DNA from: Methylobacter sp. S3L5C
GTDB lineage: Bacteria > Pseudomonadota > Gammaproteobacteria > Methylococcales > Methylomonadaceae
Direction of reading: 5' to 3'
Assembly: GCF_022788635.1 (NCBI RefSeq)
Contig: NZ_CP076024.1
Span: forward strand, 2,666,001-2,730,000
DNA length: 64,000 nt
In this document: positions 6,613-40,491 of the stretch, in pieces
How positions within the stretch are numbered: the stretch's first letter is position 1
Layout: the number at the start of each line of letters is the position of its first letter
Made by a program: the position numbers and the translations under genes
Notes under the pieces: model-generated
What the model was told of the DNA's origin: nothing
The model's database searches: none
Seen by the model: only the letters and a program-made list of their open reading frames with translations

Positions 6613-7829
6613 GTACTCAGTCAGCGTTGATATGTCGAATGATAGCCCCCATATAATGTCTTTACATTGCCATTAATAAACACCATTGAAAAAGAAATAC
6701 ATAGTACGACTAACGGAAGATGAACGCGCTTATTTGGGAAGTTTGATTCATACCGGAAAAGTGGCCGCTCATAAAAGGTTACACGCTGAAATACTGCTGA
6801 AAGCGGATGTTAGCGAGTTAGGAGAAAAATGGCTGGACCGGCCAATAAGTGAAGCTTTTGGTATTTCAAGACGTACCGTTGAACGAGTCCGGGAGCGACT
6901 GGTTCAAGAAGGCTTGGAATCGGCTTTAAACCGGGCAAAGTCAATTCGGGTTAGAAGTCGTACTATTGATGGAGAGAATGAAGCCCGTTTGATCGCGTTA
7001 AGTTGTGGCGATGCACCTGAAGGGCGTAGTCGCTGGACATTACGTTTACTTGGACAGCAGATGGTTGAGCTGGGTTATATTGAAAGTGTATCGCATGAAA
7101 CTATCCGGCAAACCTTAAAAAAAACGAATTAAAACCCTGGCAAAATAAAGAGTGGTGTATTCCGGCTAAAAAAAATGCTGAGTTTGTTTGTGCTATGGAA
7201 GATACGCTTGAGGTTTACAAGCGACCTTATGATGAAGCGCAACCACTGATTTGCATGGATGAAAGCAGCAAGCAACAGATTAAAGACACGCGAACACCAA
7301 TACCGGCAAAGCCTGGCACGGTCGCTCGGTACGACACGGAATATGAGCGTAATGGAGTGAGCAATATTTTTATGTTTTTTGAACCCTTGCAGGGCAAACG
7401 GTTTGTTGAGGTAACCGATCAAAGAACGGCCATTGATTGGGCGCATCAAATTCGTAACCTGGTTGATGTCCATTACCCGCAGGCTAAACGTATTACCCTG
7501 GTTATGGATAATCTGAATACCCATACTGGTGCCTCTTTATATAAGGCATTTGAGCCAAAAGAGGCGAGAAGAATTCTTGAAAAACTAGAAATACACTACA
7601 CGCCCAAGCATGGCAGTTGGTTAAATATGGCCGAGATAGAATTAAGCATCCTGTCACGGCAATGTATGGATCGCCGCATTCCAGATCAAGAAATGTTAAA
7701 AACAGAAATTTTAGCGTGGCAAGAAAAAAGAAATACTATTGCTCGGCCTATGAAATGGCGGTTTACCACGGAGGATGCACGGATAAAACTGAAGAAACTT
7801 TATCCGACATTATCAGATTGACTGAGTAC
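6613..7829 (+). mobile_element. IS630-family element, copy 1 (1217 bp)
   Basis: The terminal inverted repeats begin GTACTCAGTCA at 6613 and end TGACTGAGTAC at 7829. The element sits between CTA and TAG, i.e. a CTAG target with the TA duplicated (6611-6612 and 7830-7831), the known IS630 target preference. The second copy at 36976-38192 has exactly the same length and the same encoded proteins in inverted orientation, so transposition was recent. Copy 1 is embedded at the left junction of the MITE, where MITE insertion had created CTAG. Confidence 0.92.
6686..7821 (+). CDS. IS630-family transposase, made by -1 frameshifting
   Basis: The first frame (6686-7132, TTG start, 148 residues) carries the N-terminal helix-turn-helix domains: KVAAHKRLHAEILLKAD, then ISEAFGISRRTVERVRERL. 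The second frame (to 7821) carries the DDE catalytic domain: ICMDESSKQ, TLVMDNLNTHTGASLY and HGSWLNMAEIELSIL. They meet at a run of eight A bases (7117-7124) that contains the slippery heptamer A_AAA_AAA. Shifting -1 there gives a continuous protein of about 375 residues. Both copies carry the same run, which supports programmed frameshifting rather than decay. Complete and probably active. Confidence 0.87.
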
Positions 7830-8351: not shown

Positions 8352-8449
8352 GTTGTTAACAATGATGTGTCAAATATAGGTCCACAGAATACATAAGTTT
8401 TCAGATGCTATTCCTGAAAAATTGGGGGGGGTATTTATTGCGCGTTACC

Positions 8450-9431
8450 TTAACTCAAGAGCTACTCAAAATCACCGTAGAGGCCTCACTCAATGCGGAA
8501 ATGGAGGCTCACTTGGGCTATCCAAAGCATTCGCCGCCGAGGCATAATTCCGGCAACAGCCGTAATGGCTATGGTACTAAATCACTTAAAGGTGATCACG
8601 GTGTGCTTGAGATCGAAACGCCACGAGACCGCAACGGCACTTTTGAACCCCAGTTTGTATGTAAAAATCAAACGCGGTTAACGCATTTTGATGACAAAAT
8701 TCGGACCTTATATGCGAAGGGCATGACGACACGGGATATTGTTGATACCTTTGAAGAAATGTATGGCTCGACTATTTCTGCCACCCAGGTCTCAACTATC
8801 ACTGAAGCCGCTATGGGAAAATTCATCGAATGGCAATCCAGGCCGTTAGATGAGGTCTATCCCATTATTTATCTGGATTGTATCGTGGTAAAAATCAGGC
8901 AAGATAAACGCGTTATTAACAAGGCAGTTTATGTGGCACTGGGTGTTAATATGGCAGGCCAGAAGGAATTGTTAGGGCTCTGGTTATCCGAAAATGAAGG
9001 CGCTAAGTTTTGCCTATCTGTGCTGACCGAGCTAAAGAATCGAGGCATTAAGGATGTGTTTGTTGCTTGTGTGGATGGCTTGACTGGATTTCCGGATGCC
9101 ATCGCCACAGTCTTTCCTAAAACGCAGGTTCAGCTCTGTATTGTCCACATGGTGCGGAATTCATTACGCTTTGTTTCCTGGAAATATCGAAAACTGATTG
9201 CGGCAGATCTCAAGAAAATCTACCAGTCAATCATGGTTGCAAAAGCAGAAATGGAGCTCGAAGCCTTTGCGAGGACTTGGGACAACCATTATCCATAAAT
9301 CGGCAACGAAAGTCATTTATCTGGCTATTAAAAATACGTCAAAAAAATGGTCCATGCCATTACGCGATTGGAAACCGGCCATTAATCAGTTTATTATGAT
9401 GTATCAGGACAGGATGCCCGATTTTAATTAA
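8450..9431 (+). pseudogene. IS256-family transposase, main part with internal deletion
   Basis: The frame runs TQELLKITVEASLNAEMEAH, then a catalytic Asp in YLDCIVVKI, CVDGLTGFPDAI and VQLCIVHMVRNS, all typical of IS256. After WDNHYP (near 9295) the frame breaks and resumes as KVIYLAIKNTSKKWSMPL, then DWKPAINQFI. About 50 residues are missing, including the region that normally holds the catalytic Glu and the YTTNAIES motif. The product is therefore inactive. Confidence 0.8.
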
Positions 9432-9513
9432 TGGCAGTTTACACGGATTTTCTTATACCCTCTGGTGGCGCTACGCGCTAACGATTTTGGTCACTTAATG
9501 GTTGTTGCAATTT

Positions 9514-9729
9514 TTAGCCACCATTACCAATATTTTCCCAGGTATTGTTACCTGACACTTCCAGTGTATGCAACAGGTTGGTCGTTTCTTGCTGTTTTTC
9601 CCGTAACGCTTCCAGCTCTTGCTTGACTTCTTCTGCGGCTTGTCGGGACTTCATAACTAATGCATCAATATGCGCACTTCGTTCGATAAGTTCAACCAGT
9701 TTTTGACCGTATTCATCGGTTATGTTCAT
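9514..9729 (-). CDS. Small coiled-coil protein, function unknown
   Basis: The 71-residue product has no membrane segment. Residues 10-58 form a heptad-like helix rich in Glu, Gln, Lys and Leu (KSRQAAEEVKQELEALREKQ), so a coiled coil is likely. GGGGAGATAACCC is an excellent ribosome binding site before the ATG at 9729. It lies between the IS nest and the HypX-like gene, on the same strand as the latter and 83 bases downstream of its stop. I do not recognise a family. Confidence 0.6.
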   Translation of the reverse strand: MNITDEYGQKLVELIERSAHIDALVMKSRQAAEEVKQELEALREKQQETTNLLHTLEVSGNNTWENIGNGG

Positions 9730-9812
9730 GGGTTATCTCCCCGGGATTATTGTGTATTATTTTATCCAAAACGATGGGTTTGACAGATCCCAACGAGATG
9801 TTTCCTTATTGC

Positions 9813-11996
9813 TTAAAGGATCGGGCCAAGTTCCTGTTCTTTCTGGTAAACATTAAACGCCATATCTGAATTAATAATGTGTTTGGCCCACTTATCCATA
9901 AATCCCTGAATATCGTTTTGTTTCCAGTCATCATTAATAATCTTATGATCAATTTCAATTAATTTTTCCAGCATTATTTTATGTTCTTTTGTATGTCCTT
10001 TGTAATATCGAAAACCTGATTGTTCCATCAGTTCTTCTTCAGCATTAAAATGCTCTTTGACATGCTGATAGATTAACTGAATATTTTTGACCAACTCTTC
10101 CTTATTTATAGAAGAAACCAGCTGATTAGCCAAAATAAATACTTCCTGATGTTGGTTATCCATTAAAGCATCATTGGTATGGTAATAGTCCTGCCAGATA
10201 AAATGGTACATACTGCCCAAGGACAGTTTTTGGGTCTGACCTTCTTTTTGACGATGGATGGCTATATTTTCAGGCGTTGCTTTGTCGTTGCCTGTTTTAT
10301 AAACAAAATTTTGTCTGGCAATATGGTAAGCCGCATTGCCATAGAAATTCGCGTACATTTGGGTTAATTCGAATTTCCTGTAAGTCGCCAAGGCTTTTAA
10401 TGATTCATCATAACAACGGGTTTTGGCTTTTTCATTTAATTGCTCTCTTAATGTCTCATTATCAGTAACAAGGTCATTGACCAGATGTTTAACCTGAGCA
10501 GTAAATAGTTTATGATTTTTGTCGAGGACCTTATCACACAGTCCTATGCGCCATGCTTTCTTGGCGCTAATGGGCAGGCGTTGTTCAGTCAATGCAGTGG
10601 CCATTTCCTGGCCGACACGTTTGGGTAATAAATAAGTCCAATACTCAGAACCATAAAGCTCGCCCATATTCTTATAATGTGGATTAAAAATAACACCTTC
10701 TCTGGCAAATACCCGGTCAGCAGCCAAAGCCATAATGGCACCACCTGCACCTGCACTGCCAGCAAGTGCAGAAATAGTTAATTTATCCAAGGTAGTGATA
10801 ATCTGATAGATAAGATCATCAATGGCGTTGATATTTAACCACGATTCATCAGCCGGAGATTTTGCTGTTTCGATGTGATTAAGATGAATACCATTTGACC
10901 AACATTCTTCACCGCCCATTAACACAATCGCTTTTATTGGCATCGTGGCAACATACTGATAGACCGTTAACAATAGTTTACATTGCTCGGTACTCATGCC
11001 GCCATTATGAAAAGGGAAATAGAGATAAGCGATGTCATCTTCCTGTTCATACCACACTTCTTGACAGGGTAGTTGCCGTCCCGGTTTGGTATAATCGATT
11101 TCGATAACTTTGATGGTTTTGGATAACAGGCTTTTTAACGTTGAAGTCTCCGGGCTTGTTTTGGGTAACAGGTCTTTTAAAACGAAAGTGGCCGGTAATT
11201 TTATACTTTTGGTGCCAGATTCCACTTTCGGTTTTAAATGTCCAATCCAGATTGCACCATCGACTGTTGCCCGACAAATGGCATGATTTGCCATTGCAAT
11301 GATGTCTCCCGGTTTACCTGTTAAATGGTTTTCTTTATGGGCATTAAAAATAAAAACTGGTTTTCCGTAAATTTCATCCAGCACTCCGGGGCTCCCGTCA
11401 GCGGCGTTAATGCGCTTTAAAATCTCATCCGTTTTATGTGTTTTCCAATTGATTTTACGATCTTCCTGCTTTATTGACGGCAGCAATATACCTGTATAAT
11501 CGGCTCTACTATAATCTTGTACTTCGGGTTTAAAATCCGGCGCATCAAAATAGGTTAAAATTTCCCATAAACAGTCCACTGCTGCTTGCGTCACTTCCCG
11601 ATAGAAAATACTGCTTTTAGTCGCTGGCCGCAGGGGAAAGGTTTTGTTGGCCCAAATGGCTCCGGCATCCATTTCTTCAGCAGCTTCAAGTAAAGAAACG
11701 CCCCATTCCGGTTCGTTATTCTGGATGGCCCAGTCCAAAGATGATGGTCCTCTGTCGCCTTTAATGCCAGGGTGTACGATGAGGCATTTGGTATGAGCAT
11801 AAATTTCTTTGGGAAGACGTCGAGTTAAGAATGGACACAGTATTAAATCCGGTTTAAATAACGCAATACCTTCTAGTAGTTTGGCTATGTCACCTAAATG
11901 TAATTCAACTGAGACCAAATAACCTGCATCGTTAAGTTCGGTGTAAAAACGTTGTGTTAATCCGGAAAATGCCGATGAAACAAGTAAAATACGCAT
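9813..11996 (-). CDS. HypX/HoxX-like protein fused to a C-terminal hemerythrin domain
   Basis: The ATG at 11996 is chosen because AGGAGAGCTTC precedes it and MRILLVSSAFSGLTQ is the family start. Residues about 1-300 are a formyltransferase-like domain (CLIVHPGIKGDRGPSSLDWA, EMDAGAIWA). About 330-560 is an enoyl-CoA hydratase/isomerase-like domain (IKAIVLMGGEECWSNG, SALAGSAGAGGAIMALAADR). HypX supplies CO for the active site of oxygen-tolerant NiFe hydrogenases. Residues about 590-727 are a bacteriohemerythrin domain with the iron ligands in place (DNQHQEVF, EHFNAEEELM, GHTKEHKIM, KHIINSDMAF). HypX is normally about 550-600 residues, so the 727-residue fusion is unusual. No hydrogenase genes are in the window. 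Confidence 0.85.
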   Translation of the reverse strand: MRILLVSSAFSGLTQRFYTELNDAGYLVSVELHLGDIAKLLEGIALFKPDLILCPFLTRRLPKEIYAHTKCLIVHPGIKGDRGPSSLDWAIQNNEPEWGVSLLEAAEEMDAGAIWANKTFPLRPATKSSIFYREVTQAAVDCLWEILTYFDAPDFKPEVQDYSRADYTGILLPSIKQEDRKINWKTHKTDEILKRINAADGSPGVLDEIYGKPVFIFNAHKENHLTGKPGDIIAMANHAICRATVDGAIWIGHLKPKVESGTKSIKLPATFVLKDLLPKTSPETSTLKSLLSKTIKVIEIDYTKPGRQLPCQEVWYEQEDDIAYLYFPFHNGGMSTEQCKLLLTVYQYVATMPIKAIVLMGGEECWSNGIHLNHIETAKSPADESWLNINAIDDLIYQIITTLDKLTISALAGSAGAGGAIMALAADRVFAREGVIFNPHYKNMGELYGSEYWTYLLPKRVGQEMATALTEQRLPISAKKAWRIGLCDKVLDKNHKLFTAQVKHLVNDLVTDNETLREQLNEKAKTRCYDESLKALATYRKFELTQMYANFYGNAAYHIARQNFVYKTGNDKATPENIAIHRQKEGQTQKLSLGSMYHFIWQDYYHTNDALMDNQHQEVFILANQLVSSINKEELVKNIQLIYQHVKEHFNAEEELMEQSGFRYYKGHTKEHKIMLEKLIEIDHKIINDDWKQNDIQGFMDKWAKHIINSDMAFNVYQKEQELGPIL

Positions 11997-13128: not shown

Positions 13129-13373
13129 TTATCTTCCTCACATAGCCAATAGTGGGTTGAATGAAACAGAAGTGCCGTCTGTTTTTTAAATTACGTCCCT
13201 GTATTTTATGTTTAAATTTTTCGTGAATTAACCATTTGCTTTATGGTTTCTTCTAAAGGCGATAGCAACGGTTATATATTCTCTCAATGTATATTTTTAC
13301 ACAATGACAGTTAACCCTCATTTCCTGCCAAAAAATATTGTCATGTTGTTCAGGTTCTGACAATAAGCCAATT

Positions 13374-36411: not shown

Positions 36412-36975
36412 AAGATAAAGAAACTACCCGTGAACATATCATCTGATGACAAAGAACTCCGCCAATCGATCCGCCAGCTGGATTCCTTATTGACGCAGGT
36501 ATTAAAAACTCAGGCGCGGCCTGAAACCGTCGCCACGGTTAAACAACTGCAACAGCGTTTCGCCGGATTATTGAGCGACAGCAACCAACTCGGGCGGCTG
36601 CATCTGCTGGAAACGGTCGAAGGCATGGATCCCGACGCCATTGGCGAGGTGGTGCGCGTATTCAATTGCTATTTCAGCCTGCTCAATATTGCCGAGGAAG
36701 CTCATTACCTGAGACTACGGCGACGGCAAGCCGAACAAGGTGGTCACTACTGGCCAGGCTCCTTTCACGATACCTTGCTCACGCTCAAAGAATCAGGGGT
36801 AACGGCGGACAAACTCCAGGTTCTTCTGGATGAACTGTTATACCTTCCGGTAATGACCGCCCATCCGTCCGAGGTCAAACGGCGTACCGTCAAGAGCGCC
36901 TTGCGCAATGTGTTTCTGACCCAGGAAGCGTTAGGCGATAACCACATTAAATGCTATTTTCGCGAAGAAGCACTA

Positions 36976-38192
36976 GTACTCAGTCAATCTGATAATGTCG
37001 GATAAAGTTTCTTCAGTTTTATCCGTGCATCCTCCGTGGTAAACCGCCATTTCATAGGCCGAGCAATAGTATTTCTTTTTTCTTGCCACGCTAAAATTTC
37101 TGTTTTTAACATTTCTTGATCTGGAATGCGGCGATCCATACATTGCCGTGACAGGATGCTTAATTCTATCTCGGCCATATTTAACCAACTGCCATGCTTG
37201 GGCGTGTAGTGTATTTCTAGTTTTTCAAGAATTCTTCTCGCCTCTTTTGGCTCAAATGCCTTATATAAAGAGGCACCAGTATGGGTATTCAGATTATCCA
37301 TAACCAGGGTAATACGTTTAGCCTGCGGGTAATGGACATCAACCAGGTTACGAATTTGATGCGCCCAATCAATGGCCGTTCTTTGATCGGTTACCTCAAC
37401 AAACCGTTTGCCCTGCAAGGGTTCAAAAAACATAAAAATATTGCTCACTCCATTACGCTCATATTCCGTGTCGTACCGAGCGACCGTGCCAGGCTTTGCC
37501 GGTATTGGTGTTCGCGTGTCTTTAATCTGTTGCTTGCTGCTTTCATCCATGCAAATCAGTGGTTGCGCTTCATCATAAGGTCGCTTGTAAACCTCAAGCG
37601 TATCTTCCATAGCACAAACAAACTCAGCATTTTTTTTAGCCGGAATACACCACTCTTTATTTTGCCAGGGTTTTAATTCGTTTTTTTTAAGGTTTGCCGG
37701 ATAGTTTCATGCGATACACTTTCAATATAACCCAGCTCAACCATCTGCTGTCCAAGTAAACGTAATGTCCAGCGACTACGCCCTTCAGGTGCATCGCCAC
37801 AACTTAACGCGATCAAACGGGCTTCATTCTCTCCATCAATAGTACGACTTCTAACCCGAATTGACTTTGCCCGGTTTAAAGCCGATTCCAAGCCTTCTTG
37901 AACCAGTCGCTCCCGGACTCGTTCAACGGTACGTCTTGAAATACCAAAAGCTTCACTTATTGGCCGGTCCAGCCATTTTTCTCCTAACTCGCTAACATCC
38001 GCTTTCAGCAGTATTTCAGCGTGTAACCTTTTATGAGCGGCCACTTTTCCGGTATGAATCAAACTTCCCAAATAAGCGCGTTCATCTTCCGTTAGTCGTA
38101 CTATGTATTTCTTTTTCAATGGTGTTTATTAATGGCAATGTAAAGACATTATATGGGGGCTATCATTCGACATATCAACGCTGACTGAGTAC
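36976..38192 (-). mobile_element. IS630-family element, copy 2 (1217 bp), in ppc
   Basis: Same length, ends (GTACTCAGTCA/TGACTGAGTAC) and encoded proteins as copy 1 at 6613-7829, in opposite orientation. It is inserted at CTAG within ppc with TA duplicated (36974-36975 and 38193-38194). Confidence 0.95.
36984..38119 (-). CDS. IS630-family transposase (copy 2), -1 frameshift
   Basis: Protein sequences are identical to copy 1 in both frames: the HTH part 38119-37673 and the DDE part ending at 36984. The same A8 slippery run is at the junction. Intact, so the element should be able to move. Confidence 0.87.
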
Positions 38193-40491
38193 TAGAGCGG
38201 CTGCAATGTCAGATTCAAATGCTGTGGAAAACCGACGAGGTGCGCACCCGGAAGCTGGGCGTGGCTGACGAGATCGATGCAGGTCTTTTCTATTTTTCAC
38301 TCTCCCTGTTCCAGGCGACAGCGCTGGTTTACCGTAATTTCGAACGTTCTTTGAGTGATGTATACGGCGAAGACGTGGCTAGGCAAATCCGTGTGCCCAG
38401 TTTTTTGTGTTTTGGTTCCTGGATCGGCGGCGACCGCGACGGCAATCCCAACGTCACCTCTGAAACCACCATTCTGGCCTTGCGCCTGCAAGCGCAAACC
38501 ATTTTGCAGGAGTATATTCACCGCTTGGACGAATTACGCGGTCAGCTTTCCCATTCTGAGGGTCTCTGTCAACTGTCGCCAGCATTTTTAGACAGTCTTG
38601 AGGCCGACCGTACCTCGCTTGGCGTATTCATAGCCGAGCTGGAAAAACCTTATTTGCAAGAGCCTTACCGACACAAGCTGGCGCTGATGAAGCACCGCAT
38701 GGAGTGCGCTCTCATGCAGGTTCAACAACATCTGAGCGGTGAACCGGAGTTGCCGGATCGTCATGCCTATCCTGGTATATCTGCGTTTTTGGACGATTTG
38801 CGGCTAATCGACTCTTCCTTGCGCGGCCACGGCGATGCGGCTATTGCCGATTTGGAACTGCATGATTTAATCCGTCTCGCTGAAACCTTTGGCTTCCACC
38901 TCATGCAACTGGACGTACGCCAGGAATCAAGCCGACATACCCAAGCGGTGGCAGATATTTTGGCGGCCGCGTTGAGTCTGGATTATCTCGCCCTGGATGA
39001 AAATCAGCGTCTCGAACTGTTGAGCGAAGCCATCACTGCGCCGGGCGGACTGATGTACGATCTTGCCACTTTGTCTCCGCCTAGCCGAGAAACGTTGGAA
39101 ACATTCAACGTCATGGCATGCATGAGACGGGAAATCAGTCCGGACTGCTTCGGTAAATATGTAATTTCCATGACGCACAACGCCAGTCATGTCATGGAGG
39201 TAATGCTGCTGGCGGCGCAAAGCGGCTTGATTGGTCGCCTTAGTGGCCGTTGGCATTGTCATATCGGCGTGAGTCCCTTGTTTGAAACGATTGACGATCT
39301 CAACCGGATTGAAGAGGTGCTTACCCGGCTGTTCGACACCCCGATCTACCGGGAGTTACTGCGGGTTTCCGGCGATAGTCAAGAGATCATGCTGGGCTAT
39401 TCCGATTCCTGCAAAGACGGCGGCATTCTGGCCTCAGCATGGGGGTTGTCACGAGCGCAGCGGCAAATCATCGCCATTGCCGAACAGCGTGGCATCAAGT
39501 GCCGTCTGTTCCATGGTCGCGGCGGTACGGTAGGACGTGGCGGCGGCCCCACTCACGAGGCAATCTTGGCACAGCCGCCGGATACTGTGCGTGGACAGAT
39601 CAAATTCACCGAGCAAGGCGAGGTGCTGTTCTACCGATACAACAATATGGAAACCGCGATCTATGAATTGACGATGGGCGTGACCGGTCTGCTAAAGGCC
39701 AGTGTCAGCCTGGTGCAACCCGTGCCACACGACCGCCCGGAGGATTTGGCGGTGATGGATGAACTGGCGCGAATTGGCGAACTTGGTTACCGCGAACTGA
39801 CCGAGGGCACCCCCGGATTTCTCGATTATTTCTACGAAGCCACACCCGTCAGCGAAATTGGCGGTCTCAACATCGGTTCACGCCCATCGCATCGTAAAAA
39901 AGGGGATCGCTCAAAAGACTCGGTACGCGCCATTGGTTGGGTATTTTCCTGGGCCCAGTCGCGGCAGACCTTTCCCGCCTGGTACGGTATTGGCTTGAGT
40001 CTTTCGACCTGGTGTGCAGGCAAGCCGGAGCGGCTGGAAAAGCTGCGGGAAATGTACCGGGACTGGCCGTTTTTTCGCAATCTGTTGAGTAACGCCCAGA
40101 TGGCGCTCAGTAAATCGGACATGAACATCGCCAAGGAATACGCCGGTCTGTGCGTAGAGCCGGAATCAGGCAAACCCGTCTATGAATTGATTGCCGGCGA
40201 ACACCAACGCTGCGTGGAGTGGATTCTGGAGATTGCGGAAACGGATCGGTTGTTGGCGGAGAACCCGGAACTGGCCGACTCACTGCATCGGCGCAATGCC
40301 TACCTCGGGCCGCTCAATTACCTCCAAGTATTTTTGTTGCGTCGATTGCGGGAAATCGATCTAAAGAATCCGGGCGAAAATCCCTGGATGAAACCTCTGT
40401 TGCGTTCCATCAACGCCATTGCGGCGGGGATGAGGAACACCGGCTGATAAACACGTTTTTGCAAACGTAACGGGAACTGTGAGAGCAAAGC

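Follow-up and report, generated by a model that had tools for sequence, protein, structure and literature searches.

The window analysed here, a stretch of 64,000 nucleotides from Methylobacter sp. S3L5C, encodes a protein (hypX-hr) in which HypX is followed by a bacteriohemerythrin domain. HypX is described as the oxic route to the CO ligand of NiFe hydrogenases, with a different and unknown source under anoxic conditions, and both the origin of this ligand and the need for a separate enzyme in aerobic life are named as an open issue of hydrogenase maturation in the available part of PMC12134894. The locus raises the question of what an iron domain does on such an enzyme, and which process its CO would serve. 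Tentatively, and with rather less than even confidence, we favour the reading that hypX-hr is a stand-alone, O2-responsive CO synthase working chiefly for hydrogenase maturation, in which the O2 step is putative. The features on which this reading draws are collected in Table 1.

Table 1. Features of the hypX-hr locus, in window coordinates
Feature	Position	Strand	Basis or detail
hypX-hr: HypX with C-terminal bacteriohemerythrin domain, 727 aa	9813..11996	-	
HypX part, residues 1-583: N-terminal formyltransferase region followed by a crotonase-fold region	10248..11996	-	alignment to 6j0p, conservation, model
Flexible linker, about residues 586-609	10170..10241	-	pLDDT < 50 over most of linker
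Hemerythrin domain, residues 599-715	9852..10202	-	diiron ligands H616, H649, E653, H668, H672, H706, D711
REG: DJ-1/PfpI and AraC-type HTH regulator, 351 aa	12073..13128	-	Pfam; NCBIfam
Conserved 29-bp operator-like motif, TGGCAGGAAATGAGGGTTAACTGTCATTG	13302..13330	-	173 bp upstream of REG
Last downstream stretch matching M. psychrophilus L066	9483..9783	.	homology comparison
Transposase-like ORF, at the position of the relatives' NTPase	8405..9298	+	named by eye

The CO-making chemistry, which leads from formyl-THF to formyl-CoA and then to CO, is known for HypX of other organisms. In hypX-hr, profiles, alignment and model place the formyltransferase and crotonase domains on one chain with the HypX fold, and the HypX part aligns to the solved Aquifex HypX (6j0p) with 47% identity over residues 1-583. 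The catalytic residues proposed for A. aeolicus HypX in the available part of the report by Muraki et al. (PMC6802093) are H74, D80, D109, Y416 and E426. In the alignment to 6j0p these correspond to H75, D81, D110, Y441 and E451 of hypX-hr, and all five (5/5) are kept and invariant across 12 same-genus proteins. In a larger set of 119 rows they are also kept, except in the partial or broken copies L102, L110, L118 and L175, in L167 (the second fused copy of genome G490), which has E at the position of D81 (D81E), and in L162, a divergent paralogue. Judged by these residues, hypX-hr is a HypX with an intact catalytic set and a predicted CO synthase. The preliminary description of this DNA had reported a HypX-hemerythrin fusion with the hemerythrin at about residues 590-727, and the full HypX (1-583) and the hemerythrin (599-715) found here bear it out; the linker of ~24 residues between them is disordered in the predicted structure. 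A long HypX frame of another kind comes from L165 of another gammaproteobacterium (8930-11779, minus strand; 949 aa), in which ~380 residues lie ahead of the HypX part. This N-terminal stretch has no Pfam match, and the frame could represent either an ORF called too long or a further fusion.

The C-terminal domain scores above the cut-offs of TIGR02481 (65.3; curated cut-off 51.75) and PF01814 (31; cut-off 25.3), and below that of the narrower bacteriohemerythrin model NF033749 (59.8; cut-off 84). Its four-helix bundle was matched to 4xpx, presumably from Methylococcus capsulatus, and the seven-ligand pattern that we take to define the diiron site is complete (7/7), so the earlier statement that all iron ligands are in place holds. 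Across 47 rows each ligand is kept in 44-47, and the misses come from the prematurely ended frames of L079, L090 and L097; all seven are kept wherever the frame of a fused copy extends to the ligand positions. Moreover, 18 hemerythrin domains with 38-97% identity to that of the window share only 23 invariant positions, which include all seven ligands; we read this as selection on the iron site. The diiron site of hemerythrin binds O2 and, unlike haem, is not known to bind CO, and for this reason a hemerythrin suits a CO-making enzyme; the phrase that hemerythrin does not bind CO was not found in our literature search. Going by its ligands, the domain of hypX-hr probably binds O2 at its diiron site. 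Delivery of this O2 to the maturation step, as had been suggested, finds no footing, since nothing here shows HypX using O2. By PF01814 or TIGR02481 the own genome contains no other hemerythrin, and ten bhr genes are given for Methylomonas denitrificans FJG1 in the available part of PMC12607906.

HypX was counted with the window protein as query (E 1e-60). In Methylomonadaceae, 73 of 237 genomes contain HypX, and by hand these were divided into 52 with a fused copy, 18 with unfused copies only and 3 that are too short to tell. Split or broken copies occur in 8 of the 52 fused genomes; of these 8, six belong to the 40 fused genomes of high quality. In these incomplete copies the frame ends early (G435), is shifted (G455, G476), contains an in-frame stop (G534), lies at a contig end (G469, G545, G585) or is without an internal part (G616). 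Fused matches in 52 genomes rule out an assembly artefact or a chance fusion, and because the fusion is conserved family-wide we regard it as real biology. In the whole order, HypX was found in 89 of 311 genomes; those outside the family (16) carry an unfused form, with matches that end by residue 584. In a sample of the class (21 of 369 genomes with HypX), only the own genome matched past residue 591. Of 55 plasmid records with a match, the 12 listed all end by residue 584, and none of these 12 is fused.

A contig search gave 480 places encoding relatives, and the named loci are the best 80 of these 480. Among these best 80, 42 are fused, partial and broken ones included; their titles name, for example, Methylobacter, Methylovulum, Crenothrix, Methylomonas and Methyloprofundus, others read uncultured Methylococcales or Methylococcaceae, and a few only 'uncultured proteobacterium'. 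As the best 80 of 480 places were kept, distant fusions may exist. One candidate, L138, with a tblastn match that reaches query residue 645, was rejected as a fusion, as there is no hemerythrin match at the locus. From the above, the fusion is common and, as far as seen, lies within one bacterial family, Methylomonadaceae. Of two doubts raised in the preliminary description, that of an artefact is removed by the 52 genomes, while the fusion did prove widespread, as far as seen in one family.

Rows with at least 520 aligned residues were used for the tree (114 including the window, 107 after identical ones were dropped). In this tree of 107 HypX parts, a quick tree with SH-aLRT support only, the fused label needs 5 changes, most simply explained by one gain and about four apparent losses of the hemerythrin (L163, L170, L171 and L168/L169). 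The DNA retrieved around unfused loci showed no hemerythrin coding sequence. Among the lineages of apparent loss, G430 and G590 have no HypD, HoxH or PF00374 match, and G486 and G445/G446 keep HypD.

The setting of hypX-hr was compared in a neighbourhood table of 123 loci, in which L125, L134, L135, L144 and L181 have no row owing to the ORF filter or a short HypX stretch. Usually, though not essentially, HypX lies in or beside a hyp or hydrogenase cluster, and hypB, hypC or hypD is present within 9 kb in 22 HypX loci of other bacteria. Such a setting is absent for hypX-hr. No hyp, hup or hox match occurs within 9 kb of it, in line with the preliminary remark that hydrogenase genes are missing nearby, nor within 9 kb, as far as the available sequence extends, in the other fused loci (references without HypE and HypF). 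Instead, REG lies 76 bp upstream on the same strand. Its nearest NCBIfam models are FtrA (NF006902; 228.6 bits against a cut-off of 425) and GbdR (NF052371; 112.2 bits against 480), and it stays below both. An AraC/DJ-1 regulator precedes the fused gene on the same strand in 35 of the 42 fused loci (best 80 of 480). Four of the seven others (L067, L074, L085, L110) begin near a contig end; at L086, L090 and L097 the upstream sequence could hold the regulator wholly or for the most part, yet none is there. Downstream, 15 of these 42 loci have a P-loop NTPase gene (AAA_26). Homology of the window to M. psychrophilus L066 ends at 9483, 2 bp before the start of the relative's NTPase gene, and this gene is absent from the window. 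Elsewhere in the window, a phosphoenolpyruvate carboxylase gene is split into 36430-37005 and 38219-40447 (plus strand) around an IS-like element at 36984-38119 (minus strand); the two ORFs of this element have the same translations as the pair at 6686-7821. The carboxylase gene looks interrupted in the own genome.

An FNR-type box upstream of the regulator was tried and rejected (at least 8 of 10 matches in 21 of 78 sequences, against 17.4 in shuffles, which is no signal), and the 29-bp motif came to light during this look. Its consensus is TGGCAGAAAATGAGGGATTTTTGTCATTG, and its profile was trained on 34 distinct sites including that of the window, so that high scores at these sites are partly by construction. 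Among distinct loci that have a regulator preceded by at least 350 bp of sequence, the motif stands ahead of that regulator at 34 of the 35 fused loci and at 13 of the 17 unfused ones (36 of 37 and 14 of 19 before genes present under two names were removed). The sole fused miss is L076, in which a weak copy precedes a nirK-like gene instead, and the unfused misses (L034, L035, L105, L175) each contain a copy elsewhere in the locus. In L167, a fused copy without an adjacent regulator, it is hypX-hr that has the motif in front, at a distance of 233 bp. It was found nowhere in the 22 hypX loci of hydrogenase operons.

The site in the window scores 40.9 and is the only window site above 16. Within about 1.74 of the 4.82 Mb of the own genome (L026-L029, 80 stretches and the window), the best other site scores 13.5 and lies 1.5 kb from the next start, and the motif is absent from the hydrogenase loci L026-L029. 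In other genomes, the motif precedes a copper nitrite reductase in L175 (above the TIGR02376 cut-off; hypX is broken there) and a pair of flavin/2Fe-2S reductase and PNPOx genes in L154, L157 and L035. The regulator probably binds the 29-bp motif, and its regulon would be small, as judged from the about 1.74 of 4.82 Mb scanned. Copper nitrite reductase-like genes near hypX were seen in L175 (5843-7318), L167 (7131-8141) and L076 (938-2008); that of L167 is below the TIGR02376 cut-off, and hypX is fused in L167 and L076 and broken in L175.

The own genome, a single contig of 4,815,745 bases, encodes a group-1-type large subunit (PF00374, E 3.7e-180) in a cluster that includes maturation genes (most gene names by eye). 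PF00374 also passes its cut-off at two other loci, which by eye are HoxFUYH and a Hyf-like complex. HypD and the hydrogenase small subunit (TIGR00391) are above their cut-offs. All of these clusters lie elsewhere on the chromosome, away from hypX-hr. Group 1d small subunits are of the extra-cysteine form, and the uptake hydrogenase small subunit of the own genome has a CTGC motif, which makes the label 'O2-tolerant' doubtful for this enzyme. The expected link to O2-tolerant hydrogenases is thus partly supported: NiFe hydrogenases are present, but the O2 tolerance of the uptake enzyme is doubtful. For the genus Methylobacter, NiFe groups 1d, 1e, 2c and 3d are listed, with 3d in all genomes analysed, in the available part of a survey (PMC12810054).

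Among 173 high-quality genomes of the family, 147 encode HypD and 143 an enzyme of the HoxH type. HypD or HoxH is present in 40 of 40 fused genomes and 10 of 16 unfused-only genomes (Fisher p 0.0002, kinship uncorrected), and without the six split or broken copies in 34 of 34 fused genomes (p 0.0005, kinship uncorrected). Taken singly, HoxH occurs in 39 of 40 fused and 104 of 133 other high-quality genomes (p 0.003), and HypD in 38 of 40 and 109 of 133 (p 0.045). HypX of any form shows no association with HypD in high-quality genomes (48 of 57 with HypX, 99 of 116 without; p 0.82). Most HypD-bearing genomes of the family are without HypX, which means that another CO source exists.

Six high-quality genomes with unfused HypX have neither HypD nor HoxH (G430, G477, G482, G484, G583, G590), and a PF00374 match (E 0.001), a short one, occurs in G477 only; each consists of 50 to 350 contigs, so that genes may be missing. 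Fused copies without HypD, HoxH or PF00374 match occur in G431, G524 and G545, which are 88, 78 and 63% complete. The high-quality genome G439, also without HypD and HoxH, contains broken pieces of a close relative (77-84% identical), among which the hemerythrin part was not seen. In G435, G455, G476 and G616 the copies are broken or shortened and HypD and HoxH are kept, so decay of the copy is not tied to loss of hydrogenase only.

A second clade of HypX, 45-49% identical, is unfused. In most of its rows, genes for a response regulator, an MHYT-HisKA kinase, a receiver and a hybrid kinase come after HypX; a similar AraC/DJ-1 regulator stands in front of part of them, sometimes with an NTPase and a multihaem cytochrome after. 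Loci of this sister type are L146, L147, L148, L159, L160, L164, L173, L174 and L035 (domains scanned in L174). For MHYT a role in sensing O2, CO or NO has been proposed. Hemerythrin fusion and the MHYT kinase set look like alternative ways of attaching gas sensing to HypX, and the sister-type cluster may be an operon for gas signalling that includes a CO-making enzyme. Of 24 unfused copies that are linked to the regulator or to the kinase set, 23 have intact catalytic residues; the exception is the broken L175. Copies with intact residues in genomes without HypD and HoxH are L152 and L153 (G482, rated 100% complete, with two HypX copies), L154 (G477) and L157 (G484).

In the hydrogenase reading that we tentatively prefer, the HypX part would move the formyl group of N10-formyl-THF onto bound CoA and then decarbonylate formyl-CoA to CO, as its fold and residues suggest. 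Judging by co-occurrence, the CO would enter the Fe(CN)2CO unit of NiFe hydrogenases, foremost of soluble HoxH-type enzymes and of any group-1 enzymes that the cell has. The tethered hemerythrin would bind O2 at the diiron site (ligands, fold), and once loaded it might switch, shield or locally buffer HypX, which may be active in the presence of O2 and upon failure of the anaerobic CO source. With an O2-responsive domain on the enzyme of the oxic route, the switch would be local. The adjacent AraC/DJ-1 regulator, acting on the 29-bp motif, would govern expression in place of hyp-operon control, and with an extra iron domain and an apparently dedicated regulator the activity of the enzyme may depend on oxygen. 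The fold, the residues, the ligands, the linkage of regulator and motif, and the co-occurrence with HypD or HoxH support hypX-hr in this role, as do the two loss lineages without hydrogenase matches (G430, G590) and the broken pieces in G439. Against it stand the lack of hyp, hup or hox matches near the fused loci, the absence of the motif from the own hydrogenase loci, the missing association of HypX of any form with HypD, the many HypD-bearing genomes without HypX, the two loss lineages that keep HypD (G486; G445/G446), the decayed copies beside HypD and HoxH in G435, G455, G476 and G616, and the fused copies in G431, G524 and G545, in which no HypD, HoxH or PF00374 match was found, though these genomes are incomplete.

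The main rival is a CO synthase with a non-hydrogenase job, because unfused HypX occurs without HypD or HoxH and the motif precedes nirK; we hold it possible, if on the unlikely side. CO would be made, or formyl-THF disposed of, in a response to low O2 or nitrogen oxides, and the gas sensor would be the hemerythrin or, in the sister type, the neighbouring MHYT histidine kinase. The six high-quality genomes point this way, together with the intact residues of the 23 of 24 regulator- or kinase-linked copies, the response regulator, MHYT-HisKA kinase and hybrid kinase after HypX in the sister type, the motif before the nitrite reductase (L175), the weaker nirK-like site (L076) and the reductase and PNPOx pair, and its absence from the own-genome hydrogenase loci. 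However, CO as a signal is backed by gene neighbours only, the hydrogenase-free genomes are fragmented (50 to 350 contigs), and each of the high-quality fused genomes, 40 of 40, contains HypD or HoxH. Another formyl-CoA-related role, which the preliminary description had left open, thus stays alive through the missing HypX-HypD association and the hydrogenase-free unfused genomes, while the same 40 of 40 speak against it for the fused form. A bolder version, which we regard as unlikely, is that methanotroph HypX was taken from hydrogenase assembly into a gas-responsive module that makes CO as an effector or signal. This module would have its own regulator and operator and a CO-blind O2 sensor, fused (hemerythrin) or adjacent (MHYT kinase); its CO would act in a low-oxygen or nitrite response, and hydrogenase maturation would be one client only.

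Two other explanations concern the hemerythrin itself. It might be a protective domain that scavenges O2, NO or peroxide near the nascent Fe-CO on HypCD, with HypX catalysis itself free of hemerythrin control. The predicted flexible tether would suit this, and a possibly O2-sensitive Fe-CO step on HypCD is discussed in the available part of PMC12134894. However, a domain that binds O2 stoichiometrically scavenges poorly if it is not re-reduced, and no reductase is among the 30 most frequent families listed beside the fused form; we find protection improbable. Even less credit, and very little in all, goes to a passive fusion that serves at most dimerisation, stability or iron binding: the domain was apparently lost about four times while HypX was kept, but all seven ligands persist in every frame that reaches them, despite divergence to 38% identity.

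Full-text searches found no description of a HypX-hemerythrin fusion, in agreement with the first impression that it had not been reported, with the proviso that the 56 architectures of PMC4919030, available in part, could include a bare listing. No paper was found in full-text searches for HypX with methanotroph, MHYT or Methylomonas. In the available parts of the methanotroph-hemerythrin papers PMC12607906, PMC12810054 and PMC6977074 the term formyl is absent, as is the word HypX in that of the Methylobacter survey PMC12810054. A HypX with its own diiron site makes the O2 dependence of CO synthesis testable within one polypeptide, the fusion adds a client for hemerythrins, much discussed in low-O2 methanotrophs, and the pair of regulator and motif offers a handle on when methanotrophs make CO.

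In summary, hypX-hr is a HypX variant and not a new kind of system. It shares the two-domain architecture and the catalytic residues with HypX/HoxX of Cupriavidus necator, Rhizobium leguminosarum and Aquifex aeolicus (6j0p), but adds the linker and the hemerythrin, sits outside the hyp operon and has its own AraC/DJ-1 regulator and motif. Its hemerythrin shares the four-helix bundle and the seven diiron ligands with bacteriohemerythrin (4xpx), but is tethered to a predicted CO-making enzyme instead of being free; the most frequent hemerythrin fusions named in the available part of PMC4919030 are those with chemotaxis and GGDEF parts. REG shares DJ-1/PfpI and the AraC HTH with FtrA/GbdR-type regulators, but is below both curated cut-offs and is linked to HypX.
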